Assembly: GCA_013152845.1 (NCBI GenBank)
Contig: JAADFM010000012.1
Coordinates: forward strand, 1 to 11,709
Direction: 5' to 3'
From: Methanobacteriota archaeon
Lineage (GTDB): Archaea; Hydrothermarchaeota; Hydrothermarchaeia; Hydrothermarchaeales; JAADFM01
Length of the DNA stretch: 11,709 nucleotides
The notes under the pieces were generated by a model. That model was given only the letters and a program-made list of their open reading frames with translations. It did not search any database and was not told where the DNA came from. Made by a program: the position numbers and the translations under genes. Below, in pieces: positions 1 to 11,709 of this stretch (the first letter of the stretch is position 1; the number at the start of each line of letters is the position of its first letter).

Positions 1-95
1 GAATTCAGGATGGTCTTGAACCTGTGGCAGTATCCCACCTCGAATCCCCGGTAGTCCTCGCAGGTCTCCAGGGCGCACGTCTTGTTTTTCTCCAA
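1..95 (-). CDS. Cys-rich mini-protein 3 of the nrd operon (partial, 3' end outside the window)
   Basis: The reading frame starts MEKNKTCALETCEDYRGF and continues EVGYCHRFKTILNS to the window edge. Function is unknown. It carries the pattern C-x4-C-x10-C-(H/V)-(K/R), almost the same as the 46-residue protein at 257-397, so the two look paralogous. Start choice: the strong Shine-Dalgarno GGAGGTGAT (100-108) overlaps an in-frame ATG (99-101). It sits four bases before an in-frame TTG (93-95), a spacing like that of the gene starting at 1540, so TTG is preferred. If ATG is used, the gene starts at 101 with Met-Arg first. It is the last visible gene of the operon that begins with nrdD. Metal or cofactor binding through the three cysteines is only a guess. 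Confidence 0.6.
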   Translation of the reverse strand, partial: MEKNKTCALETCEDYRGFEVGYCHRFKTILN

Positions 96-108
96 GCGCA
101 TCACCTCC

Positions 109-243
109 TCACTCCATACCCAGCCTGCACAGGGTGGTGTACACCTCCATCTTCCTGGCCTCGCTCTCCAGGCTCTCCTGGTACCTGAGGCAGTACGTCC
201 CTATGCAGTACTCGCACCGCTCCGGTGAGCACCCGTGGGACAT
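109..243 (-). CDS. Cys-rich mini-protein 2 of the nrd operon (44 aa)
   Basis: A 44-residue protein starting MSHGCSPERCEYCIGTYC, with cysteines at 5, 10, 13, 18 and 39. The second half (residues 19-44) is charged and probably helical. The first part shares C-S-P-E-x-C with the mini-protein at 257-397, and a shortened spacing to the aromatic-Cys that follows. ATG (241-243) is preceded by GAGGTGA about eight bases upstream. An adjacent GTG directly before it could be an alternative start. The stop lies just ahead of the Shine-Dalgarno of the next mini-protein. Four cysteines within 14 residues suggest a Zn or Fe-S site. No known family is recognised. It was too short for standard ORF cut-offs, but codon use, ribosome site and operon packing support it. 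Confidence 0.65.
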   Translation of the reverse strand: MSHGCSPERCEYCIGTYCLRYQESLESEARKMEVYTTLCRLGME

Positions 244-256
244 CACGGCCCTCACC

Positions 257-397
257 TCAAAAAGAGCACTGGTTGGACCAGTACTCCCTGTCCTCCGGGG
301 TCTTCAGGGTCACCCGCATCTTGACGCAGTACCCCACCGACTCCGGGCCCGAATAGTAATGGCATCCCTCAGGGGAACAGTCCATGGCAAACCTCAT
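257..397 (-). CDS. Cys-rich mini-protein 1 of the nrd operon (46 aa)
   Basis: A 46-residue protein whose ATG overlaps the nrdG stop as ATGA, with the Shine-Dalgarno GGAGG located inside the nrdG 3' end. This points to translational coupling. Cysteines are at 7, 12, 24 and 44. The core reads C-S-P-E-G-C, then a Tyr-Tyr stretch, then V-G-Y-C-V-K. The partial protein at 1-95 has the same layout (C-A-L-E-T-C, then V-G-Y-C-H-R). I do not recognise the family. It may be a small metal-binding or redox protein used with the anaerobic reductase or its activase, but the only support for that is location and cysteine content. Confidence 0.7.
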   Translation of the reverse strand: MRFAMDCSPEGCHYYSGPESVGYCVKMRVTLKTPEDREYWSNQCSF

Positions 398-1101
398 TTT
401 CCCCTCCATTTCACATCCTCCACATATCTCCTGGCCCGCTCCACCAGGGCGTCCATCTCCTCGTCTGTGGGGGGTGCCACCCCTCTAAGCTCCTCCACCC
501 TGATATTCAGGGGCGCATACTTCTGGAGCACGTACCTCTTAGCCCCCCGGAGTTCCCTGGCGATATCCTCGATATCCTCAGGCTCCATGAGGGTCGGCAC
601 ATAGGTTGTGCGGAACTCGTAGTCCACCCCCGAAGCCTTCAGGAGCTCGATGGACCTGACGATGCCATCCAGGTTGCCGTTCATATCCACCCCTGCCACC
701 CGGGAGTACTTCTCCGGCTCCAGGGGCGCCTTCACGTCCATGGCCACGTAATCCACCAGGTTCTCGTTTATCAGGGCCTTCAGGACCCCGAACCTGGTCC
801 CGTTGGTATCCAGCTTCACCATCATGCCCCGCTCCTTCAGCGCCCGGCAGAAATCCGGCAGGTCGGAATGTACCGTGGGCTCCCCGCCCACAATCACCAC
901 CCCGTCGATGAAGTCCGAATGCTCGTCCAGGAAGGAGAATATGGACTCCTTGGGCACGTTATCATAGGAGCCGGGCTCATAGACCAGCTCGTGGTTGTAG
1001 CAGTAGGGACAGCGCAGGTTGCACCCAGGTGTAAACACCAGGGAGGCAATCCTCCCGTCCCAGTCCACGAGACTGGTCTCCATGAAACCCTTAACGTCCA
1101 T
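394..1101 (-). CDS. nrdG: Anaerobic ribonucleotide reductase activating protein, radical SAM (NrdG type)
   Basis: This is the radical-SAM activase that uses a [4Fe-4S] cluster and S-adenosylmethionine to form the glycyl radical of class III ribonucleotide reductase. From the ATG at 1099-1101 the protein has 235 residues. The signature C-N-L-R-C-P-Y-C lies at about residues 27-34, followed by the SAM-binding G-G-E-P-T near residue 72. It fits the NrdG2-type subfamily of about 230 residues. The start ATG overlaps the redoxin stop as TGATG; a GTG one codon earlier (1104) is possible. The gene ends ATGA into the first Cys-rich mini-protein. Its natural substrate here is probably the separately encoded glycyl-radical protein at 1364-1540 rather than a full-length NrdD. 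Confidence 0.93.
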   Translation of the reverse strand: MDVKGFMETSLVDWDGRIASLVFTPGCNLRCPYCYNHELVYEPGSYDNVPKESIFSFLDEHSDFIDGVVIVGGEPTVHSDLPDFCRALKERGMMVKLDTNGTRFGVLKALINENLVDYVAMDVKAPLEPEKYSRVAGVDMNGNLDGIVRSIELLKASGVDYEFRTTYVPTLMEPEDIEDIARELRGAKRYVLQKYAPLNIRVEELRGVAPPTDEEMDALVERARRYVEDVKWRGK

Positions 1102-1364
1102 CACAGGCTCTTCCAGGCGCGTTCCAGTTCTTCCGGGTCCGGCACGTCGCCCCGCCAGGACCTGACCTCTTCTTCCTCGTCGTCCCGCAGCACCAGGGTC
1201 GTGGGGGTTGACATGACCCCGTAGTAGGCGGCCTCTGCCATCCCGTCCACGTCCTCCACGTCGTAGTACTCCACCGTGGCCCCCAGGGCCTCCAGGCCTT
1301 TAAGGACCTCCTTTGTGGCAGGGCACTTGCCGCAGTCCTCCTTGTAGAACATCTTGACCGGCAT
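1101..1364 (-). CDS. NrdH/glutaredoxin-like redoxin, 87 aa
   Basis: A small thioredoxin-fold protein starting MPVKMFYKEDCGKCPATK. The CxxC active site is C11-G-K-C14, and the expected cis-proline is P54 in S-T-P-T. The length of 87 residues is typical of glutaredoxin/NrdH-like proteins. The ATG overlaps the stop of the glycyl-radical protein (TGATG), and GGAGG stands about six bases upstream. Its place between the glycyl-radical protein and nrdG suggests it is the dedicated dithiol reductant of this ribonucleotide reductase. Some class III enzymes take electrons from a redoxin rather than from formate. The electron source for the redoxin is not visible here. The longer reading frame extending to 1529 is not used; it overlaps the preceding gene. 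Confidence 0.88.
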   Translation of the reverse strand: MPVKMFYKEDCGKCPATKEVLKGLEALGATVEYYDVEDVDGMAEAAYYGVMSTPTTLVLRDDEEEEVRSWRGDVPDPEELERAWKSL

Positions 1365-1540
1365 CAGGCCTCCTCCGCGGCGGCATAGAGGGTCCCGAAA
1401 TGGGAACCGTCCCTGGCCTGCCTGTCCTTGAGCTCGCCTATCTTCCCCTTGTTCCATGAGGAAACCTTGGAGAAGAAACCGGTAACCCGGGTTATATGCT
1501 CGATGTTTTCCGAACCGCAGCACGGACACTTTCCTTCCAT
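1364..1540 (-). CDS. Stand-alone glycyl-radical domain of class III ribonucleotide reductase (58 aa)
   Basis: This 58-residue protein matches the extreme C-terminus of NrdD, but here it is its own gene. It begins MEGKCPCCGSENIE, giving the second Cys pair of the NrdD zinc ribbon (C5/C8, with C7 extra). It continues with H-I-T-R-V-T-G-F-F, where G21 aligns with the radical glycine of the family motif R-V-x-G-Y (Gly681 in E. coli NrdD). After that comes W-N-K-G-K-I-G-E-L-K-D-R, the usual NrdD tail. The start is well defined: ATG directly follows the previous stop, and a full GGAGGTGAT lies three bases further upstream. An extra 17-residue tail follows the conserved part. The first Cys pair sits on the separate catalytic subunit, so zinc binding should join the two chains. 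Split proteins of this sort resemble the spare glycyl-radical protein YfiD/GrcA of pyruvate formate-lyase. Confidence 0.88.
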   Translation of the reverse strand: MEGKCPCCGSENIEHITRVTGFFSKVSSWNKGKIGELKDRQARDGSHFGTLYAAAEEA

Positions 1541-1666
1541 CTAATCACCTCCGTATCCGAATTCTTCGATGTAACGCTTGATAATCTCCTCGGCATGCTT
1601 CAGCGCCTCCTCGTCGTCGGCAAGCCTCTCTTTCAGGTCCAGGAAGAAGGCCTCGTCGATCTTCAT
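1541..1666 (-). CDS. 41-residue acidic helical protein between the two NrdD pieces
   Basis: A 41-residue protein beginning MKIDEAFFLDLKERLADDE and ending F-G-Y-G-G-D. It is rich in Glu, Asp, Lys and Leu and is probably one or two helices. It has no cysteine and no known motif that I recognise. Its ATG shares one base with the nrdD stop (TGATG), and its TAG stop directly abuts the ATG of the glycyl-radical protein. Codon use matches the neighbouring genes. It may help dock the glycyl-radical protein onto the catalytic subunit, but nothing in the sequence proves that. The ribosome site (a G-run about eight bases before ATG) is weaker than those around it, which suggests coupled translation. Confidence 0.7.
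   Translation of the reverse strand: MKIDEAFFLDLKERLADDEEALKHAEEIIKRYIEEFGYGGD
1544..1552 (-). promoter_or_regulatory. Full-length Shine-Dalgarno for the glycyl-radical protein
   Basis: GGAGGTGAT matches the anti-Shine-Dalgarno of archaeal 16S rRNA over nine bases and stands three bases (the preceding TAG stop) before the ATG at 1538-1540. It shows that the glycyl-radical segment is initiated independently and is not read through from nrdD. Confidence 0.85.
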
Positions 1667-3612
1667 CACGCCAGCCCCCTGACAGTCTTGCCGCAGTCCA
1701 GGCACGAGGTGAACTCCGGGGAGAAGCATATCTGGTCGTTTAAGGTCTTCTTGAAGGTCTTTATCACGAAGTTGGCAATACTGGCCGGGTCGGGTCTTGC
1801 CTCGCCCAGCCAGATGTGGGTCAGAGACCCGGCATGTATCATCGGGTGGAACATCCCCTCTTTCTTGACCCTCTCGATGGGGTTGATGCGCTCCCTGACG
1901 TTCAGGTAGGTGGAGTTGGTGTAGTACATCTCCCCGAGCTCTATGCTGCCCTTCATCACCGATGCCGCCTTGTCCCCGAAGTGGGCCAGGTCCAGCTTCG
2001 CCATCCGGTATGCGGTGGACTCCGCCGGGGTCTGCTCCAGGACAAAGCGCATGCCCATCTCCTCGCCCAGGCGCTCGGACTCCTTGTTCATGTAGGCGAT
2101 GGTGCGCAGGCCGAACTTGAAGGCCTCCCTGGACTGGTGCATCTCCTCGCCGGTGTGGTACTGGACCATCTCGTTTAGGCCCACCATGCCGAAGAGGAAG
2201 GTGGCCCGGTGGAGGCGGTAGTAGGGCTCCCCGTCCTTGGTCATGGCCAGCAGCCCTAACGGTCCCTGGTTGCCCATGGAAAGCAGCCGGGTGATGAACC
2301 GCCGCTTGTACTCGTGGGCCTGGGCCATCAACTTCATGCGCTCCGAGATGATGTCGAAGAGCTCCTCGTCGTCCCCGTTTGCCTGATAGGCGACCCTGGG
2401 CAGGTTCAGCGTGGCGTTCTGCATGGCAGAGTAGCGCATCTTCCAGGGGGTCTTGGCGTCCTCGAAGTCCTGCTCCTCCAGCTTGAATGACAGCCGGCAG
2501 CACTCCGAAATCTTGGCGGTCTCGCCCCGGTCCATGACGTAGTAGGTGTTGCCCATCCGGGAGGAGACCTCGGCGGCCAGGTTCAGGAACTCCTCGTAGC
2601 CCTCGGTCTTGAACAGCCGCTCGGTGATGTGGAGCTGGGGCTTGGGGAAGAAGAAGGGCCTGCCCATGCCGTCCCCGCCCTTGTAGACGTTGAACAGGGC
2701 GGTGGCGAAGCGTTGCGCCTCGGGCAGGTAGTCCTCGTAGTTGTTGCCCGTGAACTCGCCTCCGGGCCCGATGGCGGGAACGCCTTCAAAGTGCTTTGGT
2801 ATCTCCCAGTATATGTTCAAATCAGAGAATATGCTCTGCCCGCCCCGGGCCACCGCCTGCTGGGCGAACTCGAAGACCAGCATCTGGGCTATCTGCTCCA
2901 TCCTCTTGTCGTCCACGCCCTTCAGGAAGGGGGCGAAGAAGAGGTTGACCGCATCCCAGCCGATGGCCCCCGCAAAGGAGCCCTGGAGGGCGGCCGAGAA
3001 CTTGATGAGGTGCAAAAGCAGCACCTCGGGGTGCTTGGGTGGTTTCGAAATCGAGAGGGCGTTGGGCAGGTTCAGCCCGAACTTCTTGATGTACTCCAGG
3101 GAGTTGCCGGAGCAGTAGGGCCGGTCAATCATCCCCAGGTCGTGGAGGTGGAAGTCGCCCCGCTCGTGGCCTGCGGCTATCTCGGAGGGGAAGACCTTCA
3201 AGAGGGCGTACTGCTTCTTGATGCTCTCGGCCAGGGAGAGGTTGGTGGCCTCCGGGCCGTGGGGCACGTTGGCGTTCTCCTTGTTGTGCTGGACCACCAT
3301 CTCGTGGACATCGAAGATGGGCACACCCAGCCGGGTGTAGTCCGTCCTCGTATCGATGAGACCGTGCCTTATGAGCTGGGTGTTGACCAGCTCGCGGATG
3401 AGGGGGCCGGTGAGGTACTTCTTTATCCCGGAATCCTCCACGATGTCCCTCACCTCCAGGCTGATCTTCTCGGCCGTCTCCCGGTCCAGGCCTGTCTCGT
3501 GGATGAGGGACTCCACTATCCTCTGGCGGTCCCATTCCACGATGTCCCCCCTTGACACCTTCACAAAGAGCGCAAGGTCGGTTGCATCCTTGGATTCAAG
3601 TCTTGTCTCCAT
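1666..3612 (-). CDS. nrdD: Anaerobic (class III) ribonucleoside-triphosphate reductase, catalytic subunit lacking the glycyl-radical domain
   Basis: It reduces ribonucleotides to deoxyribonucleotides under anoxia. Positions below count from the GTG at 3622-3624; the preferred ATG (3610-3612) is codon 5, with GAGGTG nine bases upstream, giving 648 residues. An ATP-cone lies at about 22-90. H-D-L-G with P-Y-C171 matches the active-site cysteine next to the substrate. E-C-C-R-L at 374-378 holds the finger-loop cysteine that becomes the thiyl radical. Further NrdD motifs include N-Q-G-P-L-G-L-L near 452 and E-Q-T-P-A-E-S near 530. The chain ends C641-L-D-C644-G-K-T-V-R-G-L-A and stops (TGA). A normal NrdD continues through a second Cys pair to the radical glycine. 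Here that piece is a separate gene (1364-1540), with a 41-residue gene between them. The two pieces add up to an ordinary NrdD length. Confidence 0.95.
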   Translation of the reverse strand: METRLESKDATDLALFVKVSRGDIVEWDRQRIVESLIHETGLDRETAEKISLEVRDIVEDSGIKKYLTGPLIRELVNTQLIRHGLIDTRTDYTRLGVPIFDVHEMVVQHNKENANVPHGPEATNLSLAESIKKQYALLKVFPSEIAAGHERGDFHLHDLGMIDRPYCSGNSLEYIKKFGLNLPNALSISKPPKHPEVLLLHLIKFSAALQGSFAGAIGWDAVNLFFAPFLKGVDDKRMEQIAQMLVFEFAQQAVARGGQSIFSDLNIYWEIPKHFEGVPAIGPGGEFTGNNYEDYLPEAQRFATALFNVYKGGDGMGRPFFFPKPQLHITERLFKTEGYEEFLNLAAEVSSRMGNTYYVMDRGETAKISECCRLSFKLEEQDFEDAKTPWKMRYSAMQNATLNLPRVAYQANGDDEELFDIISERMKLMAQAHEYKRRFITRLLSMGNQGPLGLLAMTKDGEPYYRLHRATFLFGMVGLNEMVQYHTGEEMHQSREAFKFGLRTIAYMNKESERLGEEMGMRFVLEQTPAESTAYRMAKLDLAHFGDKAASVMKGSIELGEMYYTNSTYLNVRERINPIERVKKEGMFHPMIHAGSLTHIWLGEARPDPASIANFVIKTFKKTLNDQICFSPEFTSCLDCGKTVRGLA

Positions 3613-3647
3613 CTTTCCAAACACCTCGTCAATGCATCAGAGCAGAT

Positions 3648-3662
3648 GTTAGAGAATCTAAC
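3648..3662. promoter_or_regulatory. 15-bp perfect inverted repeat in the nrd leader, possible operator
   Basis: GTTAGA-GAA-TCTAAC has six-base arms around a three-base centre. It lies about 40 bp downstream of the nrdD TATA box and about 36 bp before the nrdD ATG, so it falls just past the expected transcription start. That position would suit a repressor. It does not look like a terminator, since no T-run follows. The binding protein is unknown. Confidence 0.45.
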
Positions 3663-3700
3663 AAATTATTACCCCTGAGATTAGGATAATAAGTAAATTA

Positions 3701-3714
3701 TTCATATATAAGCC
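3701..3714 (-). promoter_or_regulatory. TATA-box promoter of the nrd operon
   Basis: Read on the minus strand this is GGCTTATATATGAA, a good archaeal TATA box within an AT-rich stretch. Transcription should start about 25 bases downstream, near 3680, leaving a leader of roughly 70 bases before the nrdD ATG. No other promoter is evident inside the operon, whose genes overlap or lie within a few bases of each other. Confidence 0.6.
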
Positions 3715-3787
3715 TTACTAATCCTTCCTATTAACTTCAAATACGATAAAACTCACAGTATCCTAACCATTTTCTGCCCAGGCATCT

Positions 3788-3830
3788 GGAATCCCCCTCC
3801 CGGGGTTCACAGGCCGAACCTGCACCCCGG
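3788..3830. other. GC-rich intergenic element with two mutually exclusive hairpins
   Basis: The divergent gap of about 300 bases between nrdD and the rhomboid gene holds, besides the two promoters, a GC-rich block. Its middle segment CCGGGGTTC (3800-3808) can pair with upstream GAATCCCC (one bulge) or with downstream GAACC and CCCCGG (3816-3830, with a bulge). It lies upstream of both predicted transcription starts, so it should not be in either leader. It could be a remnant, a small RNA or a protein site. The GGTTC...GAACC part recalls a tRNA arm, but no tRNA can be assembled around it. Confidence 0.3.
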
Positions 3831-3872
3831 CGTGGACGTTCGGTATTCCAATTCCACCCTCTTTTCCGGTGC

Positions 3873-3886
3873 AAAAACCTTAATAC
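3873..3886 (+). promoter_or_regulatory. TATA-box promoter of the rhomboid gene, leaderless transcript likely
   Basis: AAAAACCTTAATA has the form of an A-rich BRE followed by an archaeal TATA box. Its centre is about 28 bases before the ATG at 3910, which puts the transcription start on or next to the start codon. No Shine-Dalgarno precedes that ATG, in keeping with leaderless translation. Confidence 0.5.
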
Positions 3887-3909
3887 CCGGACTCCACAGA
3901 AAGACCGCC

Positions 3910-4581
3910 ATGAAGGTCACAACAGAGCTCCTCCTTGCGAACATCGGCGTCTATTCTGTCCTTGCCGTCCTCAGCGGCAACCCCCTGGAGCTCGACGACC
4001 GCTGGGTCCACGCCTTCGGGCTGTACAACCAGAGCTTCCTTGCCGGTGCCTACTACCAGGTCCTCACCTCCCTCTTCTTTCACTTCGACCTCCCCCATCT
4101 CGGCTACAACATGCTCTTCCTTGCCATCTTCGGCTACCGTGCCGAGGATATCTACGGCAGGAAGCGCTTTCTGGCCATCTACCTCGCCACCGGGGTCATC
4201 GCCTCCCTCCTCACCCTCTACCACGTCATGGCCACCTCCTCGCCGGAGCTCAAGTTCACCTCTGCGGGGGCCTCGGGGGCCATCTTCGGCATCCTCGGGG
4301 CGGTCCTCATAGCGCAGCGCAACCTGTATTCCGGGGGCGTGCGGACCTCCCTCCTCTATGGTTTCCTCTTCTTCATCCTGGCCAAGTCCACCGGCTTTCT
4401 GGCCCACCTCATCGGCCTGGTGGCCGGGTTCCTCATGGGCTACGCCCTCACCTGGGACTGGTATCCCCGGGTGGAGGAGCAGGACATCGACTTCGACGAG
4501 GCGGCCTGGGAGGAGGTGGAGCGCCAGGTCATGGAAGAAATAGAAAGAGAGAGGAGAGCCCCCCCCCGCCCAAGAGGATAA
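3910..4581 (+). CDS. Rhomboid-family intramembrane serine protease
   Basis: A 223-residue membrane protein that should cleave transmembrane helices of other proteins within the bilayer. From the ATG at 3910 it has about six hydrophobic segments. It shows the rhomboid landmarks H58-F-D-L-P-H63-L-G-Y-N67-M before the second helix, the catalytic serine in G-A-S122-G, and the partner histidine H166 in F-L-A-H-L-I-G. The C-terminal tail from about residue 184 is acidic and highly charged and probably cytoplasmic. It ends in a Pro/Arg stretch coded by a run of nine C's (4559-4567), a likely slippage spot. A longer frame reaches back to 3832. The promoter placement and the typical rhomboid N-terminus favour 3910. 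It stands alone, divergent from nrdD and convergent with the sulfur operon, so its substrate is not indicated. Confidence 0.88.
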   Translation: MKVTTELLLANIGVYSVLAVLSGNPLELDDRWVHAFGLYNQSFLAGAYYQVLTSLFFHFDLPHLGYNMLFLAIFGYRAEDIYGRKRFLAIYLATGVIASLLTLYHVMATSSPELKFTSAGASGAIFGILGAVLIAQRNLYSGGVRTSLLYGFLFFILAKSTGFLAHLIGLVAGFLMGYALTWDWYPRVEEQDIDFDEAAWEEVERQVMEEIERERRAPPRPRG

Positions 4582-4618
4582 TCGAGAAAGGAGGCAGTCT
4601 TTCCGTATTACCCTAGGG

Positions 4619-4640
4619 CATATTCTATTATGGCAATATG
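4619..4640. terminator. AT-rich hairpin between convergent genes, weak terminator candidate
   Basis: CATATT and AATATG form a six-pair stem with a ten-base loop, in an AT-rich gap (4582-4695) between the ends of the rhomboid and SepCysS genes. On the plus strand the sequence ATTTATTTAAATATT follows. Archaeal termination mostly needs only T-rich tracts, so the hairpin itself may not matter. The gap also holds two copies of CAGTCTTT (4595 and 4669). Confidence 0.3.
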
Positions 4641-4695
4641 ATTTATTTAAATATTACGGTGTTTTGGACAGTCTTTGCAAAAGGGTGCACAACCG

Positions 4696-5904
4696 TCACC
4701 CGGCCCTGGCAGACGGCTTTTCCCCTGCATCCTGCTCCCGCCCCCGGCCTGCCTCCGCCACCTCCATGAAGGCCTCTGCCACCCTCCGGACCTCCTCCTC
4801 GGTGAGGCCGTAGACCGACATCTTCACGTGCTTGGTCAGGCCGCGGTGCAGCCCCACGATGCCCCGCTTGACCATCTCGCTGGCCAGGAAGAACCCCTTC
4901 TTCTTGTGGGTCCTGGATATCTCCCAGAATAGGGGTGTCTCGAAGTGGAGGAGGTGGTGGTTGTGGGGCAGGTCCCCCATGAGCACCATATCGCACTCCT
5001 TTTCCATCTCATCGGCGAATCTCCTGGTCTTATCGAGTTCCCCGTCCCACCCCTTCACCCTCTCCTTCACATACGGGAAGGCCAGCATGGAGCTTATGAG
5101 GGGCTGCCCCCCGATGCCGCAGCCGAAGAGGTTCGGTACCTTCTTGCCGAAGAGCCTGCCGCTCCAGGCCGGACGGATCTTTGAGGTCTCGAAGAGCTTC
5201 TTGGAGTACTGGTAGGAGGTGACCACATAGCCCAGGGGTGAGAGGGACGCCATGGACTTGTGGGCGCTGAGGCTCAGGAAATCTATGTTCATCCTCTTCA
5301 TGTCGATGGGCATCACACCGCCGGTATAGGCCGCGTTCACCATGAAGGGCACCCCGGCCTCACTGCAGACCCTCCCCACCTCGGCCACGTCGATGATGTT
5401 GCCGTAATAGGGGTCGGCATGGGTGGCCACCACCAGGGCAGGGTCCGTCCCCGTCTCCTGCCTGACCTCCCGGATCTTTTCTCCATAGTCCTCGGGGTTG
5501 ATGCGGTACTCCGGGTAGCCCGAATGGGGCACCTCCACCACCTGGAGGCCGCACATCTCGGCTGAAATCATGGTGGTGTAATGGCAGGTGGCATCGGCGA
5601 TGACCGTCCTCCCCTCGGCCTGCGAGGCCACGGCCCGCATCACCGTGAACTGGGCCGCCCGGCATCCGAAAGTGTGCTCGGCGACATCCCCGCCGAAGAA
5701 CTCCGCCACCTCGGCCAGGAACTCGGTGATGGGCGGGTTCCTGATAAGGCCCGACCGCCCCTCCAGGCAGTCGTGGCAGGTCTCGTACCCGGTGCGCATC
5801 CAGTCCCGGCAGAGCTCCTCCCTGACCCCCCGGGGTATCATCCCGCCCCGCATGAGGGGGTTGATGACGATGCTGTCCCGGTACCTGTTCCTAACCGCCT
5901 TCAT
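4696..5904 (-). CDS. pscS: O-phospho-L-seryl-tRNA:Cys-tRNA synthase (SepCysS)
   Basis: A PLP enzyme that converts phosphoseryl-tRNA(Cys) to cysteinyl-tRNA(Cys), the route to Cys-tRNA in methanogens and some other archaea; 402 residues. It matches family sequence throughout: C43-H-D-C46 after the N-terminal R-G-G segment, the PLP lysine in S-A-H-K216-S, and C262 in F-G-C-G-I-G-G-Q. These three cysteines correspond to those reported as needed for persulfide-based sulfur transfer in the Methanocaldococcus enzyme. The C-terminal 20 residues are charged and not typical of the family core. ATG at 5902-5904 is preceded by GGAGGCGAT, and the gene overlaps the DUF169 gene by 14 bases. It is the last gene of the sulfur operon, so upstream TusA and carrier proteins are plausible sulfur donors. 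The partner phosphoseryl-tRNA synthetase (SepRS) is not in this window. Confidence 0.94.
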   Translation of the reverse strand: MKAVRNRYRDSIVINPLMRGGMIPRGVREELCRDWMRTGYETCHDCLEGRSGLIRNPPITEFLAEVAEFFGGDVAEHTFGCRAAQFTVMRAVASQAEGRTVIADATCHYTTMISAEMCGLQVVEVPHSGYPEYRINPEDYGEKIREVRQETGTDPALVVATHADPYYGNIIDVAEVGRVCSEAGVPFMVNAAYTGGVMPIDMKRMNIDFLSLSAHKSMASLSPLGYVVTSYQYSKKLFETSKIRPAWSGRLFGKKVPNLFGCGIGGQPLISSMLAFPYVKERVKGWDGELDKTRRFADEMEKECDMVLMGDLPHNHHLLHFETPLFWEISRTHKKKGFFLASEMVKRGIVGLHRGLTKHVKMSVYGLTEEEVRRVAEAFMEVAEAGRGREQDAGEKPSARAG

Positions 5905-6829
5905 GGGCTATCGCCTCCTCTATCTTCTTCACCAGGAGTTCGATGGAGTTCCTCAGGTTCCTGCCGGTGTAGATGTCCGCACCGAAGGAATCCAGGTCCA
6001 CCCGGGCATTCACGTAGCTCCAGTTGCCCCGCCTCACCACCCTGAAGAGGTCCGTATCACCGACGTCCCCCCGCACCGGGAGGGTTATGGTGACCCTGCC
6101 CACCCTGCCCCGGGGGTCCTTTTCCAGGTACAGCTTCACGTCGCGGTCACCGACCCGGCCGAAGAAGAAATCGGTGCTCTTCTCGAATCCTGCCTGCCTG
6201 AAGCTCTCGATGATGCCGGGGGCTATATCGCTGGTCAGACACCCGCACATGGCGGTGCAGCCCTTCTCTATATCGCGGACCCTCTCGGCAAGGACCCGGC
6301 AGGCCTCCATGGGCAGGCCCACCGCCATCTCAGCGTCCTTGAAATCCGCCAGGACCCTTGCACCCTGGCAGAAGAGGGACGCCGATGGAGCCCCCTCCAG
6401 GAGGACCCTGGCCACGGCCTCGCCGCACAGGCCGAAGGAACCCTCCTCGCCGAAGGAGGCGGACACCCCGCCCAGGAGGGCGCTGAGCTCCATGAGCTGC
6501 CTCGGCGTGCCTATGATGACGACCAGGTCGCTGTCCTCCTCCGGGGGGTTGCTGAGGAGGACGGAGACGGTCTTTTTCCCCACCCTGTACGGGAGCTCTA
6601 TGTACCTGGGCTCCACGTACCCCAGGACCAGCTCGGCGTTGGGACATGCGTGGTCCCCGGCACTGAGCTGGAGTCTTGCAGGGGCCAGGGCCACCTCCCT
6701 TACCGCATCGCAGAATGCCACCGGGTTTCTGGGATGGGGCGCTGAATCTCCCTCCTTTTCGAGGAACTTCACCCCCACCAGGGAGTACCTGTTGCCGAAG
6801 TAGGGCGTTATCACTGCGTTTGGGTCCAT
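5891..6829 (-). CDS. DUF169-family protein with Cys-rich C-terminal extension
   Basis: A 312-residue soluble protein, probably cytoplasmic. Residues 1-190 resemble DUF169 (COG2043): V-G-V-K near 18-21, F-C40-D-A-V-R, A-C62-P-N-A, and F-G-L-C135-G-E-A. The family is uncharacterised. Beyond this it carries C177 and a C191-T-A-M-C195-G-C197 cluster, then about 110 residues with no recognised domain. Eight cysteines suggest sulfur handling or metal binding. The start at 6827-6829 is chosen for GGTGAT five bases upstream and because homology begins there; the frame stays open to 6916 inside the preceding gene. It sits between canonical TusA and SepCysS and overlaps the latter, so a role in passing sulfur to SepCysS is possible but unproven. 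Confidence 0.75.
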   Translation of the reverse strand: MDPNAVITPYFGNRYSLVGVKFLEKEGDSAPHPRNPVAFCDAVREVALAPARLQLSAGDHACPNAELVLGYVEPRYIELPYRVGKKTVSVLLSNPPEEDSDLVVIIGTPRQLMELSALLGGVSASFGEEGSFGLCGEAVARVLLEGAPSASLFCQGARVLADFKDAEMAVGLPMEACRVLAERVRDIEKGCTAMCGCLTSDIAPGIIESFRQAGFEKSTDFFFGRVGDRDVKLYLEKDPRGRVGRVTITLPVRGDVGDTDLFRVVRRGNWSYVNARVDLDSFGADIYTGRNLRNSIELLVKKIEEAIAHEGG

Positions 6830-6834
6830 TTCAA

Positions 6835-7083
6835 TCACCCGATCCTTATCACTATCTCCCACTCCCCCGGGCCCTTCGGGACAGCCGAGAACCCGTGGCC
6901 TTCCTTCTCCGCCCACCTGGATATGGTCTCCAGGGTCGGCGGGTTGTCGGTCAAAAGGACCAGCTCGTCCCCGGTCCCCAGCTCTGCGGCCCCGCTGCGG
7001 GCCATGAGGAGGGGATGGGGGCAGCTGTAGCCCCTTGCGTCAACGGTCCGTCTGCTCATCTTGGGAACCCCCGGGAAGCTCAC
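6835..7083 (-). CDS. TusA-family sulfurtransferase, canonical CPxP
   Basis: A small sulfur-relay protein (82 residues from GTG at 7083, 74 from ATG at 7059). The TusA signature is present as D-A-R-G-Y-S-C-P-H-P-L-L, with the persulfide-carrying cysteine at residue 21 of the longer form. TusA proteins accept persulfide sulfur and hand it on to thiolation or cofactor pathways. The GTG overlaps the stop of the upstream TusA-like gene as GTGA, and GAGGGA lies a few bases before it, so GTG is preferred. The internal ATG has no clear ribosome site. The product probably works with the DUF169 protein and SepCysS just downstream, or with the carrier system upstream. Confidence 0.87.
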   Translation of the reverse strand: MSFPGVPKMSRRTVDARGYSCPHPLLMARSGAAELGTGDELVLLTDNPPTLETISRWAEKEGHGFSAVPKGPGEWEIVIRIG

Positions 7084-7334
7084 CCGTCCCTCAGGTCCGG
7101 CACCTCGATGAATAGCTCGAAGTCCACCCCGGCCCGCCTGACGTCCCTGACCCTGGCCTGTATCCTCTCCCCCTCGAGGCTGCGTGCTATGTTCTCCACC
7201 GCAGGCGGGTAGTCGAGGATGACCTTCAGGACCCCCCCGCCCTCATAGGCCAGGTCCTCCACCTTTATCTTCGTGTAGAGGAAGGTGTGGGGGCAGGTCT
7301 TGCCCCGGATATCCAGCTCCTCGGTTGCGGTCAT
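7080..7334 (-). CDS. TusA-like protein with variant CPHT motif (84 aa)
   Basis: An 84-residue TusA-fold protein. It contains D-I-R-G-K-T-C14-P-H-T-F-L-Y-T-K, in which the second proline of the TusA CPxP motif is threonine. A similar C-P-Y-T-F-x-x-T-K form is, as I recall, common in TusA-like proteins encoded beside ThiF and ThiS genes. Its ATG overlaps the end of the E1 gene's downstream frame as ATGA, with GAGGTT seven bases before it. Because of the frameshift in the E1 gene, a continuous open frame runs from the E1 start into this gene (7080-8117). That apparent E1-TusA fusion is an artefact of the frameshift. It probably receives or supplies sulfur for the carrier protein. Confidence 0.82.
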   Translation of the reverse strand: MTATEELDIRGKTCPHTFLYTKIKVEDLAYEGGGVLKVILDYPPAVENIARSLEGERIQARVRDVRRAGVDFELFIEVPDLRDG

Positions 7335-8117
7335 CTCCCAACCTCGCATACCGCATCCACCGGCCTGGGTACGAAGCCCTCCCCGCAGGCGGTGCATCCG
7401 GGGTCCCTCCTCAGTTTCACCTTGTAGAAATCGAGGGTATCGGCGTTTATGACCAGGAGCCGGTTCTTCAGGGCGGGCTGGTGGCCCGCAAGGTACCTCA
7501 GGGCCTCGGTGGCCTGGAAGGACCCCACGATACCGGTGAGGGAGCCCAGGACCCCTGCCTCCCTGCAGGTGGGGATGAGGCCCGGGGGCGGGGCTTGGGG
7601 GAAGGCGCACCTGAAGCACGCCGTCTCCCCGGGTATTATGGAGGTGACCCTGCCCTCGTACTGGAGGACCGCGCCGTGGAAGAGTGGCACCCGGTTCCGG
7701 GCGCAGGCGTCGTTTACCGCATAGCGGGCAGGGAAGTTGTCCCACCACGGCGTCGAAGCCCTCCAGGAGCTCGAAGGCGTTATCATAGGTAATCCTCTCA
7801 CTTATCCCGTCCACTTCTATCTCGGGGTTTATCTCGGACAGGCGCCTGGAGGCCGCCTCTGCCTTGGGCCTGCCCAGGTCGGCTGTGGTGTAGAGGAACT
7901 GGCGGTTGAGGTTTGAAGGCTCCACCTCATCGCAGTCGATGATGGTGATGCTGCCCACCCCTGCCAGGGTGAGGTAGGTGGACACAGGGCATCCCAGGCC
8001 CCCGCCGCCTGTCACCGCCACCCTGGCCTTTTTCAGGCGGTTCTGCTCCCTGGCCCCGAAATCCGGGAGAATCAGCTGGCGGCTGTACCTCTCGATTTCG
8101 TCTATTGTCAGTCCCAT
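7331..8117 (-). pseudogene. MoeB/ThiF/HesA-type E1 activating enzyme, frameshifted at its catalytic motif
   Basis: This enzyme class adenylates the C-terminal Gly-Gly of a MoaD/ThiS-like carrier so sulfur can be added. The first part (8117 to about 7743) starts MGLTIDEIERYSRQL and has the nucleotide loop G-G-G-G-L-G at 37-42, D62, and N-L-N-R-Q near 69-73. Homology then jumps frame: D-N-F-P-A-R-Y onward (7741-7334) has the zinc pair C-F-R-C, the catalytic-type Cys in I-P-T-C-R-E-A-G-V-L-G, and the second zinc pair C-T-A-C. The family reads V-V-D-x-x-D-N at the junction. Here GTGGTGG meets GACAAC, and eight bases placed between them would restore that motif exactly. The loss removes the magnesium-binding Asp region. 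It may be a true null, a population variant or an assembly error. It lies one base after the carrier gene. Confidence 0.85.
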
Positions 8118-8118
8118 G

Positions 8119-8388
8119 TCATCCCCCCGATACCGCCGGCAGGATGGATATGGTGTCCCCTGGACCCACCGGCGTCTCCAGCCCGTCCAGGAACCGGACG
8201 TCCTCGTTGTTTACGAAGATGTTTATGAACTCGTTTATCCTGCCGTCCTTGAGGACCCGGTCCCCGAACCCCGGGCTCTCCCTGTCGATGAAGGATATCA
8301 CCTCCCTCAGGGTACTGCCCTCGGCCCGCAGCTCGGGTTTGCCGCCGCAGTGGACCCTCAGAGGTGTCGACAGCCGCACCAGCGCCAT
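8119..8388 (-). CDS. MoaD/ThiS-like ubiquitin-fold sulfur carrier (ends Gly-Gly)
   Basis: An 89-residue beta-grasp protein starting MALVRLSTPLRVHCGG and ending I-S-I-L-P-A-V-S-G-G. The terminal Gly-Gly is the site that an E1 enzyme adenylates and that is then converted to a thiocarboxylate. Carriers of this type give sulfur to molybdopterin, thiazole, cysteine (CysO) or homocysteine synthesis; archaeal ones can also be protein modifiers (SAMPs). The start at 8386-8388 follows GGAGGTGG and lies two bases past the stop of the PLP enzyme gene. The E1 gene begins one base after its stop. The tie to a PLP enzyme upstream resembles the CysO-CysM arrangement more than a molybdopterin locus. No Mec+ (JAMM) protease gene, which would release the product in the CysO system, is visible. 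Confidence 0.9.
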   Translation of the reverse strand: MALVRLSTPLRVHCGGKPELRAEGSTLREVISFIDRESPGFGDRVLKDGRINEFINIFVNNEDVRFLDGLETPVGPGDTISILPAVSGG

Positions 8389-8390
8389 CC

Positions 8391-9635
8391 TCAGGCCACC
8401 TCCCCGGCCACCTGGCGGTGGGCATGGCCGATGGCCGCCTCGAAGGCCCCCAGGTCGGACCTTATGTAGACCGGCTCCGGCAGGGCCTGCCTGAGGACGT
8501 CCTGGGTCTTGAGGCCGCACCCGGTGATGTAGGCCACCGTCCGCTCGTCAGGGTCTATCTCACCGCGCTCGACCAGGTTCTTGAGTGTGCCTATCACAAC
8601 GCCCCCCGCGGTCTCGGTGAATATCCCCTCGGTCCTTGCCAGCAGCTTGATGCCCTCGATTATCTCCCCGTCGGTGGCAGAGCCGGCCGTGCCGCCGGTC
8701 TCCTTTAGGGCCTTGAGGGTGTACCTCCCGTCGGCCGGGTTGCCGATGGCCAGGCTCTTCTCGATGGTGTCGGGTTTCACCGGCCGGATATCGCCCCCGG
8801 AGCGCCAGGCGGTTGTGATGGGGCTGCAGCCCGCAGACTGGGCGGCGGTGAGCCTCGGCGGGCCGCCGTCGAGGATGCCGACGTCGTTGAGTTCCCTGAA
8901 CCCCTTCCAGATCTTGGTCAGGAGGGACCCGGACCCCGCCGGTACCACCACCCTGTCGGGCACCTCCCAGCCCAGCTGCTCGGCCACCTCGAAGCCCAGG
9001 GTCTTGGAGCCCTCGGCATAATAGGGCCTCAGATTGATGTTTACAAAGGCCCAGTTGCGGTAGCCGGCAATCTCGGTGCAGAGGCGGTTCACCTGGTCGT
9101 AGTTGCCGTCAACGCAGACCAGGTTTGGGCCGTAGGCAAGGGCCTGGGCGACCTTTGCCGGGTTCAGGTCCGCCGGGATGAAGATGTAACTCGTAAGCCC
9201 GGCCTTGGCGCCGTGGGCTGCCACCGCCGATGCCAGGTTCCCGGTGGAGGCGCACCCCACCGTGGAGAAGGAGAACTCCAGCGCCTTGGAGACCGCCACA
9301 GAGACCACCCTGTCCTTGAAGCTGAAGGTGGGGTTCAAAGAATCATTCTTTATATACAGTTCCTTTAGGCCCAGCGCCCTCCCCAGGTTTTCGGCCTTCC
9401 GCAGGGGGGTAAACCCGGCACCCAGGTCCACGGGCGCCCCTCTCACAGGGAGCAGGGCCTTGTAGCGCCACAGACTGGCAGGGCCGCCCTCGATGGTCTT
9501 CCGGCTCACTGCCTCCTTGATTTTCTCATAATCGTAGGCCACCTCCAGGGGCCCGAAGCATTCCTCGCAGATGCTCACCGGGGCCTCCGGATATTCTTTT
9601 CCGCAGTTCCTGCAAACAAGTCCTTTTACTGTCAT
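8391..9635 (-). CDS. thrC: Threonine synthase-like PLP enzyme
   Basis: A 414-residue fold-type II PLP enzyme. It has an N-terminal zinc ribbon (C8/C11 and C23/C26), the PLP lysine in S-F-K107-D-R, A-S-T-G-N-L-A at 129-135, and the phosphate-binding G-S-G-S at 234-238 followed by Leu-Leu. This is the layout of archaeal threonine synthase, which converts O-phosphohomoserine to threonine. The same family includes cysteate synthase of coenzyme M synthesis and is related to enzymes that put sulfur on phosphoserine or phosphohomoserine. Being the first gene of an operon with a sulfur carrier, E1, two TusA proteins and SepCysS makes a sulfur-adding role worth considering. No other threonine-pathway gene is nearby. 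The ATG follows GGTGA at five bases. Confidence 0.85.
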   Translation of the reverse strand: MTVKGLVCRNCGKEYPEAPVSICEECFGPLEVAYDYEKIKEAVSRKTIEGGPASLWRYKALLPVRGAPVDLGAGFTPLRKAENLGRALGLKELYIKNDSLNPTFSFKDRVVSVAVSKALEFSFSTVGCASTGNLASAVAAHGAKAGLTSYIFIPADLNPAKVAQALAYGPNLVCVDGNYDQVNRLCTEIAGYRNWAFVNINLRPYYAEGSKTLGFEVAEQLGWEVPDRVVVPAGSGSLLTKIWKGFRELNDVGILDGGPPRLTAAQSAGCSPITTAWRSGGDIRPVKPDTIEKSLAIGNPADGRYTLKALKETGGTAGSATDGEIIEGIKLLARTEGIFTETAGGVVIGTLKNLVERGEIDPDERTVAYITGCGLKTQDVLRQALPEPVYIRSDLGAFEAAIGHAHRQVAGEVA

Positions 9636-9665
9636 CGTGTCACCTTGAACTGCAGTGGATATTCC

Positions 9666-9682
9666 TCATATAAATATTTAAT
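9666..9682 (-). promoter_or_regulatory. TATA-box promoter of the sulfur operon
   Basis: On the minus strand, AAATATTTATATGAGG is an AT-rich TATA-type element about 35 bases before the thrC-like ATG. Transcription should begin near 9650, giving a leader of about 15 bases that contains the GGTGA ribosome site. The seven genes downstream are spaced by at most five bases or overlap, so this is probably the operon promoter. Confidence 0.55.
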
Positions 9683-9770
9683 GGTGGAAAAAATTACCTT
9701 GGATAATAATTGAGTGGAATAAGAGGCGTGATGGGTCCTCCCGGATGTCCTACCTGTTGCCATAGAGGAT

Positions 9771-9784
9771 AAGGTTTTAAATGT
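9771..9784 (+). promoter_or_regulatory. TATA-like promoter of the TumE-like gene
   Basis: AAGGTTTTAAATG has a TATA-like TTTTAAAT centred about 40 bases before the ATG at 9818. Transcription should start near 9803, just ahead of GGTGAGG, which stands five bases before the start codon. Confidence 0.4.
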
Positions 9785-9817
9785 TAATTGCCAATCAGTT
9801 GGTAAGGTGAGGAAATC

Positions 9818-10354
9818 ATGGCGGTCTCCACCGACAAATCTGGAATCACCCATCTGATTACTTTTAATGAGATGATGGAACAGAAAAGAAAGCTCGAAGA
9901 GCTGCTGGGGAAATACGGGGTGGCCTCTCCAGGGGAGATTGAGGAAAAGATAAAAAAAGGTGATGTTCCAGAGCACCCGGCTTACGAGGATTACCTATCT
10001 GCTCTTTCCTTAGAGGATAACATCTCCAAACTCAAGGACCAAATCCACAGGATGATAGATAGAGGAGATATAACCTTGCTGATTTTGAGGTTCCTTGGCT
10101 TTGCGAGGATTGCCAGGGACAAGTTTTCTGATATCGTAGCAGGAATGGAGATATTCGACGACAGGATGGTACTCGTTTTCTCTGACGGCTCCGAGATGAC
10201 CGTTATGTACCCGATTGAGACTAAGTACTCTTTCCACTGGCAACGGAAGGACGGGATTATCCGGATTGATACCGCACCCCACCATCACGGCGTTAAGACA
10301 TTCCCCAACCACATCCATTATGGTTCGGAAAAGGATGTCAGGGAGATACCATAA
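9818..10354 (+). CDS. TumE-like (DUF6516) toxin-family protein with helical N-terminal half
   Basis: A 178-residue protein. The C-terminal part (about 85-178) resembles TumE/DUF6516 proteins of toxin-antitoxin loci: a beta-rich segment with S-D-G-S, then F-H140-W-Q-R-K-D-G, R-I-D-T-A-P-H-H-H157, and F-P-N-H165-I-H167-Y-G. The N-terminal half (about 15-80) is helical and charged, with L-L-G-K-Y-G and V-P-E-H-P-A-Y-E-D-Y-L. It looks like a separate short protein fused on, perhaps the antitoxin side. No stand-alone antitoxin gene lies beside it. The target is unknown; the His cluster could be catalytic or bind metal. The start is set by GGTGAGG five bases upstream. Base composition is more AT-rich than the operon to its left, which fits an accessory gene. 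Confidence 0.65.
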   Translation: MAVSTDKSGITHLITFNEMMEQKRKLEELLGKYGVASPGEIEEKIKKGDVPEHPAYEDYLSALSLEDNISKLKDQIHRMIDRGDITLLILRFLGFARIARDKFSDIVAGMEIFDDRMVLVFSDGSEMTVMYPIETKYSFHWQRKDGIIRIDTAPHHHGVKTFPNHIHYGSEKDVREIP

Positions 10355-10384
10355 CCGACCCTGGCAATCCCCCGGAGGAGAATT

Positions 10385-10399
10385 TCAAAAGGGTTTTGA
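10385..10399 (+). terminator. Inverted repeat TCAAAA-GGG-TTTTGA after the TumE-like gene
   Basis: Six-base arms around GGG form a short hairpin about 30 bases after the stop of the TumE-like gene. A further T-run (GTTTTG) follows closely, so it may act as a terminator. The rest of the 204-base gap to the next gene has only short open stretches with no recognised product. Confidence 0.35.
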
Positions 10400-10524
10400 T
10401 GTTTTGCAGGGATTGCATCTCGAAATAGGCTTCCCGCAAGGCTCGTGGAATGGGCGGAGGGGAAGTTCGTCTAGACCTTCATATAGATGCTCATCTTCGC
10501 CATAGCATTGACGTGGTAGTAGAG

Positions 10525-10536
10525 CTTTTATATAAC
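10525..10536 (+). promoter_or_regulatory. TATA-box promoter of the GATase-HEPN gene, leaderless transcript likely
   Basis: CTTTTATATAAC is a strong archaeal TATA box centred about 29 bases before the ATG at 10559. The transcription start would then fall within a few bases of the start codon. No Shine-Dalgarno is present directly before that ATG. Confidence 0.6.
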
Positions 10537-10558
10537 TTGAAACAGAAAGGTTTTCTCC

Positions 10559-11599
10559 ATGTCCCAAATTGGACTTGTGGGTGGTATGGGAGTTCTTGAA
10601 GAAACTTATCTCCAAAAATTAAAGCAAAATTATTATGTAATCGACAATGAAGACATTAACAATATACATGATTTAAGGACTTTTAAAGTAATTATTTTTC
10701 CGTCACGATTGGGATATTATAACAGAGAACTATTGAAAGAAATTATTGCTAATGATGATTTCAAATTCCGATTAGAGGAGTTTCTACATCATGGAGGTCG
10801 GATACTTTTTTTCCCGCCCCTAATGACTGAATCTGATTTTGATAATGTTTGGCTTGCTGATTCCGTGGTACTAAATTGGTCCCCAATCGGTAACATTACA
10901 TATCATCGTAAAAAAGGAACCAAAATCAAATTCAATGCTGAAGGAGACCATCACATAACAAAAAGTTTGAATTTACCCAATAGGCTTTCAGTAGTGGGTA
11001 GGTTTGAATATTCTGGAAAGAATAGGACTATTCCCATTATCACAACAAAACGCGATAATCGCCATGTTATATTCGAATTAAAAGTTGGTTCCGGTTCCAT
11101 TTTATTTTTTACATTGGATTTGTCCATCAAAAATGAAGTAGATACTGAGACAAATGAATTATACAAAGGATTTTTTGAAAACGTCTTGAATTGGGGCCTT
11201 TATCCCATATCGTCATCCGTCCTTTTTGGACCTTTGTGTAACCAAGTTAAAGAACATTTTGGAGAAAAAATTGCCAGGTTTTTGAGGAAGGCCGACAACA
11301 AACTACTTGAGAATAACTTTCCTGAAGCGGGAAGAGATGCCTATATCGCCTTTGATATGGCCTTGAGGCAAAAAGGTAAAAAGAATAGACTACACGATAA
11401 TATCAATGAAGTGTTTCCGGAGTCACCGGAAAAACCAGAATATAACATTTGTCATGGCATTCGAATTACGAGGAATAAAACTTTCCATGGGGGAAAATCT
11501 TCAGATGAAATCACAACAGAGGAAATCGAATATTTTATTTCTGCAATCAAATATATCTTCAAAAACTTGATTCAAGATGAAAAGTTTAGTACGAAATAG
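10559..11599 (+). CDS. Two-domain protein: ThuA/GATase-like N-terminus and HEPN-like C-terminus
   Basis: A 346-residue protein of no family I can name. Residues 1-215 look like a class I glutamine-amidotransferase/ThuA-like fold: a first strand I-G-L-V-G-G, V-I-I-F-P-S-R at 44-50, F-L-H-H-G-G-R-I-L-F-F-P at 75-86, and G-S-G-S-I-L-F-F-T-L-D near 177-187. The usual nucleophile Cys after the strand is missing (P-S-R), so this domain may bind rather than cut. Residues 235-340 are helical, with A-R-F-L-R-K-A-D and G-R-D-A-Y-I-A-F-D, and then R305-N-K-T-F-H310-G, an Rx4H motif of HEPN ribonucleases. HEPN domains are common in prokaryotic toxin and antiviral systems. The gene is far more AT-rich than its surroundings, which suggests transfer. 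A role in defence is an inference. Confidence 0.65.
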   Translation: MSQIGLVGGMGVLEETYLQKLKQNYYVIDNEDINNIHDLRTFKVIIFPSRLGYYNRELLKEIIANDDFKFRLEEFLHHGGRILFFPPLMTESDFDNVWLADSVVLNWSPIGNITYHRKKGTKIKFNAEGDHHITKSLNLPNRLSVVGRFEYSGKNRTIPIITTKRDNRHVIFELKVGSGSILFFTLDLSIKNEVDTETNELYKGFFENVLNWGLYPISSSVLFGPLCNQVKEHFGEKIARFLRKADNKLLENNFPEAGRDAYIAFDMALRQKGKKNRLHDNINEVFPESPEKPEYNICHGIRITRNKTFHGGKSSDEITTEEIEYFISAIKYIFKNLIQDEKFSTK

Positions 11600-11613
11600 C
11601 TACCCCCACTTCC

Positions 11614-11709
11614 CTATGACCCGATTTCATCAAGGACATCCCTGACCCTTTCCGTCAGTGCTTCAAGGTCCTCCCGGACCCCCATCGTTCCCTGAATGCC
11701 TGGAGGGCT
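11614..11709 (-). CDS. 3' end of an unidentified protein (partial)
   Basis: The minus-strand frame enters at the window edge and ends M-G-V-R-E-D-L-E-A-L-T-E-R-V-R-D-V-L-D-E-I-G-S with TAG at 11614-11616. The tail is helical and charged, and its GC-rich codon use matches the operons to the left rather than the neighbouring AT-rich gene. Only 31 residues are visible, so neither family nor true start can be given. It might even be a short complete ORF from the internal ATG. It is convergent with the GATase-HEPN gene, with 14 bases between stops. Confidence 0.45.
   Translation of the reverse strand, partial: SPPGIQGTMGVREDLEALTERVRDVLDEIGS

Follow-up and report, generated by a model that had tools for sequence, protein, structure and literature searches.

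A two-chain class III ribonucleotide reductase with a putative separate glycyl-radical subunit in a Hydrothermarchaeota archaeon

Introduction

Strict anaerobes obtain their DNA precursors from class III ribonucleotide reductase (RNR), an enzyme whose radical oxygen destroys. Here, we describe a locus at which the enzyme, NrdD, appears to be divided into a large catalytic chain and a 58-residue chain bearing the radical glycine. The locus lies in a stretch of 11,709 nucleotides from a Hydrothermarchaeota archaeon (assembly GCA_013152845.1, contig JAADFM010000012.1, positions 1 to 11,709), which was analysed as a whole and is referred to as the window.

Among glycyl radical enzymes, a small separate chain, YfiD, is known to serve pyruvate formate-lyase (PFL) after cleavage by oxygen; according to the accessible text of that study, PFL is the one enzyme for which spare parts have been demonstrated, and their use by other glycyl radical enzymes is mentioned as no more than a general possibility (PMC8683613). 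The class II enzyme NrdJa/NrdJb is called, in the accessible part of its description, the only split RNR in a non-viral organism (PMC4520616). In phages, most of the nrdD splits covered by the available portions of two reports are associated with introns, inteins or homing endonucleases, some of them being spliced, and the split in phage phiAS4 has no known cause (PMC3653736, PMC12363816). Our literature search, which had most subscription journals outside its reach, yielded nothing that we recognised as a cellular split class III RNR.

Results

The two chains of the window jointly carry the NrdD landmarks that were checked, i.e. the finger-loop and beta-A cysteines, two zinc cysteine pairs and the radical glycine motif. 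They are encoded on the minus strand, in the following order:

1666..3612, minus strand: nrdD large (catalytic) chain, 648 residues from the ATG at 3612; TIGR02487 at 355.8 bits (cut-off 326.35)
1541..1666, minus strand: 41-codon open reading frame (ORF) between the two chains, an orphan and doubtful as a gene, which holds the Shine-Dalgarno sequence of the next gene
1364..1540, minus strand: separate glycyl-radical chain, 58 residues, with the second zinc cysteine pair CPCC, the motif RVTGFF (G21) and the tail WNKGKIGELKDR
1101..1364, minus strand: thioredoxin/glutaredoxin-like protein (EDCGKCP), 87 residues, its start overlapping the end of the radical-chain gene
394..1104, minus strand: NrdG-type radical S-adenosylmethionine (radical-SAM) activase (NrdG2), 236 residues; TIGR02495 at 199.7 bits (cut-off 131.15)

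The ORF of the large chain (1666-3624, minus strand) gives 652 residues from a GTG at 3624 or 648 from the alternative ATG at 3612. Its match to the NCBIfam NrdD model TIGR02487 exceeds the equivalog cut-off and covers profile positions 1-535 of 581, while the Pfam family NRDD (PF13597) matches at positions 1-518 of 562 (409.9 bits, cut-off 26.2); the N-terminal ATP-cone (PF03477) scores 22.3 bits, under its cut-off of 25.8. The finger loop reads SECCR (C371/C372) and the beta-A cysteine is C167 in RPYCSGNS, and all three cysteines are invariant in the eight split large chains that were aligned (8/8). Among known structures, 8p23, 4coi and 1h78 can be aligned with an intact close relative, whose PYC falls on the PYC of 4coi. 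The first zinc cysteine pair, CLDC (C637/C640), is the last landmark of the large chain, which ends with SPEFTSCLDCGKTVRGLA and a stop codon, so that catalytic and glycyl radical domains do not share one chain in the NrdD of the window.

The 58-residue chain, which begins MEGKCPCCGSENIEHITRVTGFFSKVSSWNKGKIGELKDR, matches PF13597 and no other Pfam family, at the part of the profile that the large chain leaves uncovered (523-560 of 562, 41.6 bits, cut-off 26.2). Seven NrdD models of NCBIfam match as well; the best, TIGR02487 at positions 542-579 of 581, stays under that model's whole-protein cut-off, as a fragment would be expected to. G21 aligns with residue 715 of 8p23_A; the radical glycine of that protein is given as Gly711 in the accessible text of its description (PMC11226230), and the offset of four residues probably reflects a tag. 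A Shine-Dalgarno sequence, GGAGGTGA, lies four bases ahead of the ATG. The reading registers of the two chains differ, and 176 nt separate the first cysteine codons of the two pairs. The zinc ribbon is interrupted in the loop joining its two knuckles, and its 2+2 cysteines are divided over the two chains.

The 41-codon ORF starts in overlap with the stop of the large chain (TGATG). It has no match in Pfam or NCBIfam and no convincing match across 25 other genomes (best E 0.04), and because of this it is doubtful as a gene and may not be a real one. A role as a conserved linker gene is rejected in view of the same lack of convincing relatives in those genomes and of G006, where the gap between large and mini-chain (L036) is filled by a different small, cysteine-containing ORF. 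No intron, intein or homing endonuclease was seen in the junctions examined.

The window alone could not exclude an error, because its metagenome-assembled genome (MAG; 62.7% complete) has other frame breaks. We therefore rely on a sample of its order, comprising this genome and 19 others. In 14 of the 20 (G000, G001, G004, G006, G008, G010, G011 and G013-G019), a large chain is present and the coding sequence is interrupted ahead of the radical domain; in 12 of these the profile match stops at 516-519 and a separate match starts at 517-521, and in G015 and G016 a single match spans an in-frame TAA. The split is found on contigs as long as 1.9 Mb and 0.6 Mb, at nearly the same position of the protein. 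Stops, registers and gaps vary among the 14 junctions, the first cysteine codons of the two pairs being 61 to 283 nt apart, and GGAGG precedes the mini-chain start in every one of them (14/14). In the other six genomes the split could not be judged or a different NrdD is present: in G012 the locus is cut by a contig end, G003, G005 and G007 have only a paralog or a fragment, and in G002 and G009 NrdD is intact and carries QCCR. The ratio of nonsynonymous to synonymous substitution rates (dN/dS; 10 pairs from five genomes of one genus) is 0-0.033 for the mini-chain (45 codons) and 0.025-0.051 for the large chain (639 codons), i.e. both chains are under purifying selection. The thioredoxin gene, which is separate and overlapping in the window, is fused to the mini-chain in family f2 (10 genomes). 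Fusions of this type also appear in 22 clusters of the protein database (P0112-P0133), 21 of which carry both Pfam domains; the remaining cluster, P0133, was assigned by an alignment over 94% of the query.

The MAG encodes a second NrdD-like protein of 707 residues (L002 937-3060, from G000:C57), which keeps the beta-A cysteine, has no cysteine at the finger-loop columns and ends ahead of the radical domain. NrdD-like paralogs of about 600-780 residues, generally without a radical domain, recur in the order (L002, L053, L051, L048, L199-L204), and several adjoin, by eye, an ORF for an Lrp/AsnC-like regulator; they are possibly nucleotide-sensing pseudoenzymes. When ten of them were aligned (the own copy and nine of the order), eight had no cysteine at the finger-loop columns, including that of G006, which has one three columns away. 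The G005 paralog has one cysteine there, and that of G003 is a fragment with a gap at this place. The G004 paralog, also without a finger-loop-column cysteine, ends in a zinc ribbon and a Gly-Tyr (NKIGYSS) without an RVTG motif. A search of the own genome (62.7% complete), G013 (99%) and G004 (97%) for a second NrdD bearing RVTGY/F was negative. A class II nrdJ of the own genome (L207 769-2608, from G000:C6) is spread over several frames.

These results bear on an earlier sequence-only reading of the window. It had described a large chain ending after CLDC, a 58-residue gene with the second cysteine pair, RVTGFF and its own ribosome site, and a catalytic chain and radical chain that divide the zinc ribbon between them; the first two are confirmed by the profile boundaries and the Shine-Dalgarno sequence, and the third is borne out by sequence conservation across families and genomes. 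Its proposed search for archaeal NrdD proteins that end at the first cysteine pair beside a radical-domain neighbour succeeded in the 14 genomes of the order. Two observations had been named as evidence against it, and neither was made: no continuous nrdD frame of the window's type occurs among the 20 genomes, and the own assembly, which is 62.7% complete, shows no second nrdD that is complete, the copy on C57 lacking both finger-loop-column cysteines and radical domain. The argument that a whole gene between the chains excludes a single error did not hold in this form, as the intervening ORF is doubtful; error is excluded instead by the 14 genomes.

To place the locus, named genomes were scanned with the large chain, which gave 107 relatives. 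Among the best 80, which were kept, 27 loci are split, 51 are intact and two are unclassed (L118, which is cut off by the end of its contig, and L130, whose frame is broken). The split of the window's type accounts for 15 of the 27, i.e. 13 loci of the window's clade, the archaeon UBA543 and the bacterium M55B174. Five others (Omnitrophota, TA06, other bacteria) end after the zinc ribbon and have a radical chain of about 100 residues just downstream; seven (six of them Candidatus Eisenbacteria) end at the same point with the radical chain on another contig (7/7). In the phylum group of the Omnitrophota type, the ~100-residue chain has a full-length match in 10 of 35 genomes and a partial one in an eleventh, G115. 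Its predicted structure has a mean predicted local distance difference test (pLDDT) score of 72.1; the score drops below 50 over residues 65-83, where the radical motif lies. A tblastn search of phages with the ~100-residue chain as sole query gave no match. A quick tree of 85 rows (L118 taken as intact, L130 omitted), with Shimodaira-Hasegawa-like approximate likelihood ratio test (SH-aLRT) supports alone and a warning of long branches, needs at least five changes between split and intact and does not settle their direction.

A survey of 297 archaeal genomes, at least 197 of them with a PF13597 match, extended this picture. Twenty places were picked for a short or stop-containing profile match, so that their rate is uninformative on frequency. 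All 20 are split, 17 with the radical chain adjoining the large chain and three (G263, G194, G155) with the radical-chain match on another contig; G029 and G040 add two further split loci. Of these 22 loci, 16 represent a second archaeal type, in which the large chain ends ...CPxHG...CP... and is followed by a mini-chain with EV[FYW]SR.VGY; a radical-SAM-like ORF (by eye) comes next in 9 of the 11 loci whose following ORFs were examined. The intact relatives L008 and L009 have C, H, C and C ahead of the radical motif, and the histidine of the second type is probably a zinc ligand. In half of the 16 loci the fourth ligand is missing from the large chain, and a cysteine of the mini-chain stands exactly five residues ahead of EV[FYW]SR; in the remaining eight the large chain holds this ligand (CPxC in three, CPxxH in five) and the mini-chain has no cysteine there. 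The fourth ligand is thus on exactly one chain in 16/16 (two-sided Fisher p ~1.6e-4, ignoring kinship among the 10 families). In G294 the large chain itself is also frame-broken by a stop. We also observed another mini-chain form, in which an extra cysteine-containing stretch such as FACSKTCKEK comes ahead of the radical motif (L222 and L223, in G328 and G277), and second mini-chains where one exists already, which are candidate spares (L150 in UBA543, G336:C79:83506-83613, and L185/L186 in G089).

Whether split enzymes act as the RNR of the cell was judged from the other RNR genes. No class I or II RNR match was found in 19 of the 21 archaeal genomes picked for split NrdD of the other types (exceptions G266 and G294), in any of the seven Eisenbacteria-type genomes with truncated NrdD (G061-G067), or in two of five Omnitrophota-type genomes. 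The clearest example is G158, a single contig that is 100% complete, in which PF13597 finds nothing beyond the large chain and the mini-chain, and which has no class I or II match. G029, G044 and G277 have a full-length NrdD as well.

The phylum of G067, whose records are mostly named Candidatus Eisenbacteria, was represented by 20 genomes, 18 of them with NrdD. The NrdD C-terminus has an intact radical motif in four (G075, G081, G087, G089); it is full-length with RVSDY, i.e. Gly replaced by Asp, in two (G079, G080); a stop falls within or at the motif, followed by a remnant, in four (G064, G078, G083, G088; the remnant of G078 is weak); NrdD is truncated in seven (G061-G063, G065-G067, G086); and the C-terminus was not seen in G085. 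A separate radical chain occurs in 17 of the 20 genomes, that of G075 being divergent (RIVGYF), and was not found in G082 and G084, which both lack NrdD, or in G088. It accompanies all four intact NrdDs and 12 of the 13 without a usable motif, and we read the series as that of a spare part which probably first accompanied an intact enzyme and later took over. VTGY is kept in 14 of 14 translated mini-chains (13 genomes), even where NrdD has lost its glycine. In G080 the two chains are on contigs of 114 and 334 kb, each gene more than 15 kb from a contig end.

As to the rest of the window, a ThiF/MoeB-like gene (by eye; 7080-8117 and 7331-7801, minus strand) is apparently split between two frames, pointing to an indel error in the assembly or a decayed gene. 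A protein of 178 residues (9818-10354, plus strand) matches the TumE toxin family (PF20126, E 1.1e-13) with its C-terminal part. A scan for promoters and terminators, built for bacteria and applied here to an archaeal host, gave nothing clearly over shuffled sequences.

Discussion

From these data we consider it very probable that the locus encodes a working class III RNR, predicted to consist of a catalytic NrdD and a 58-residue glycyl-radical subunit and to be served by an activase and a redoxin. We see strong support for function as two chains. Docking, transfer of the radical and a shared zinc site are proposed below as a mechanism.

Several points weigh against this reading. The case for a complex is built from sequence. 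Of the 14 genomes in the order that have the split, 13 (all but G010) also possess class II NrdJ, because of which the split enzyme there should not be taken as essential or as the sole RNR, and the split Omnitrophota-type genomes G070, G071 and G072 likewise have class I or II RNR. The NrdD of G088, the one of 13 without a usable motif that stands alone, has no separate radical chain in its assembly. Finally, an intact relative from Bathyarchaeota ex4484_205 (L065) sits inside the split clade, which leaves the fission history of the window's clade unsettled; L065 has a longer loop between the cysteine pairs and is possibly a re-fusion.

Among other explanations, the mini-chain could be a spare part only, like GrcA/YfiD for PFL, with the undamaged enzyme using a glycine of its own. 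Such an arrangement would suit G075 (with its divergent chain), G081, G087 and G089, where an intact NrdD coexists with a separate radical chain, and the second mini-chains of UBA543 and G336; for the window it is improbable, since the large chains of its lineage have no radical glycine and the own genome, G013 and G004 show no second NrdD with RVTGY/F. Slightly less probable again is a large chain that works without a glycyl radical, through another radical source or as a regulatory pseudoenzyme, with the mini-chain serving another purpose. The paralogs of the order, mostly devoid of finger-loop cysteines and radical domain, do illustrate that NrdD folds can lose their chemistry, but the large chain of the window keeps the finger-loop double cysteine and the beta-A cysteine and shares an operon with the radical-motif chain and NrdG; in the Eisenbacteria phylum, the translated mini-chains retain VTGY even where NrdD has lost its glycine.

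We give very little credence to one continuous nrdD having been broken in this MAG by an assembly or sequencing error or as a pseudogene. Frames are indeed broken elsewhere in the assembly (nrdJ on C6, and apparently the ThiF-like gene of the window); error and pseudogene are nevertheless ruled out by the recurrence of the split in 14 of 20 genomes at nearly the same position with differing registers, stops and gaps, to which the dN/dS values far below 1 in five relatives and the fusion of the mini-chain to thioredoxin can be added. Equally hard to credit is a joining of the frames in the cell by programmed frameshift, readthrough, or RNA or protein splicing, which the in-register frames with a single stop between them in G015, G016, G044, UBA543 and some others might suggest, but which is ruled out, as far as readthrough and frameshift are concerned, by registers and stop codons that differ among close relatives and by chains on different contigs in Eisenbacteria-type genomes (including G080), and is opposed by gaps of up to 283 nt between the cysteine pairs and by GGAGG and a start codon at the mini-chain start of all 14 junctions.

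If the locus is a two-chain RNR, as we favour, the mini-chain would dock on the catalytic barrel, and the 2+2 cysteines would form one zinc site across the chains. NrdG would then install the radical at G21, probably once the chains have docked, as with YfiD on cleaved PFL; we prefer this order because the accessible text on YfiD reports that its activation was undetected without cleaved PFL (PMC8683613). The sequence-only reading had the radical formed on the mini-protein before docking; the separate radical chain stands, whereas that order goes beyond the evidence. The radical would pass to a finger-loop cysteine, and the disulfide formed in turnover may be reduced by thioredoxin instead of formate, as suggested by SECCR lacking a methionine (compare the available part of PMC9669993) together with gene order and fusion. 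Oxygen would cut the radical chain, leaving only the 58-residue part to be replaced. Such cheap renewal, suggested by the sequence-only reading, is plausible but likewise goes beyond the evidence, though the Eisenbacteria series fits an origin as a spare part: in that phylum, a separate spare-part copy would have become obligatory once the radical motif of NrdD itself had decayed. Similar two-chain designs, with break points that differ, appear to have arisen more than once.

More broadly, we think it fairly likely that class III RNR in archaea and several bacterial phyla has repeatedly evolved an exchangeable radical subunit as a general design, with bridging zinc ligand(s) and, in some lineages, a former spare part of NrdD made obligatory after loss of the enzyme's own radical glycine, so that damage would be repaired by swapping the small chain. 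Such subunits are easily missed because they may have only about 50 residues, and a "truncated" nrdD beside an uncalled 50-residue ORF could pass for a broken or missing RNR in annotation. If the proposal is true, class III RNR gains a third component, the spare-part idea extends from PFL to RNR, and a natural two-part system becomes available in which radical installation, docking and transfer are separable and zinc sharing across chains can be tested.

Compared with canonical NrdD (T4, Thermotoga maritima, Prevotella copri), the window shows the same landmarks and a chain over the NrdD equivalog cut-off; the glycyl radical domain, which forms the C-terminus of one chain in the enzymes covered by the accessible parts of PMC11226230 and PMC9669993, is here a separate gene product. 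GrcA/YfiD and T4 Y06I resemble the mini-chain in being small, separate radical-glycine chains that complete a large glycyl radical enzyme, and some bacteria keep an NrdD-type small radical chain beside an intact NrdD. The mini-chain of the window, in contrast, matches PF13597 and thus is not a PFL-type domain, and the large chain, like those of its relatives, lacks a glycine of its own, an intact partner being present in four genomes of the Eisenbacteria phylum. NrdJa/NrdJb of Pseudomonas aeruginosa is likewise an RNR split over two genes of one operon that are both needed, but its split-off part, in the accessible text, handles re-reduction of a B12 enzyme and is not a radical domain (PMC4520616). 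Phage nrdD can also come in several pieces (available portions of PMC3653736 and PMC12363816), whereas the break in the window falls at the radical domain, with no intervening element seen in the junctions. The thioredoxin-dependent NrdD of the Neisseria bacilliformis type (NrdD2), finally, shares a double-cysteine finger loop without methionine (SCCR versus SECCR in the window) and differs, in the part of the source available, in that its class III alpha chain has a radical domain of its own (PMC9669993).

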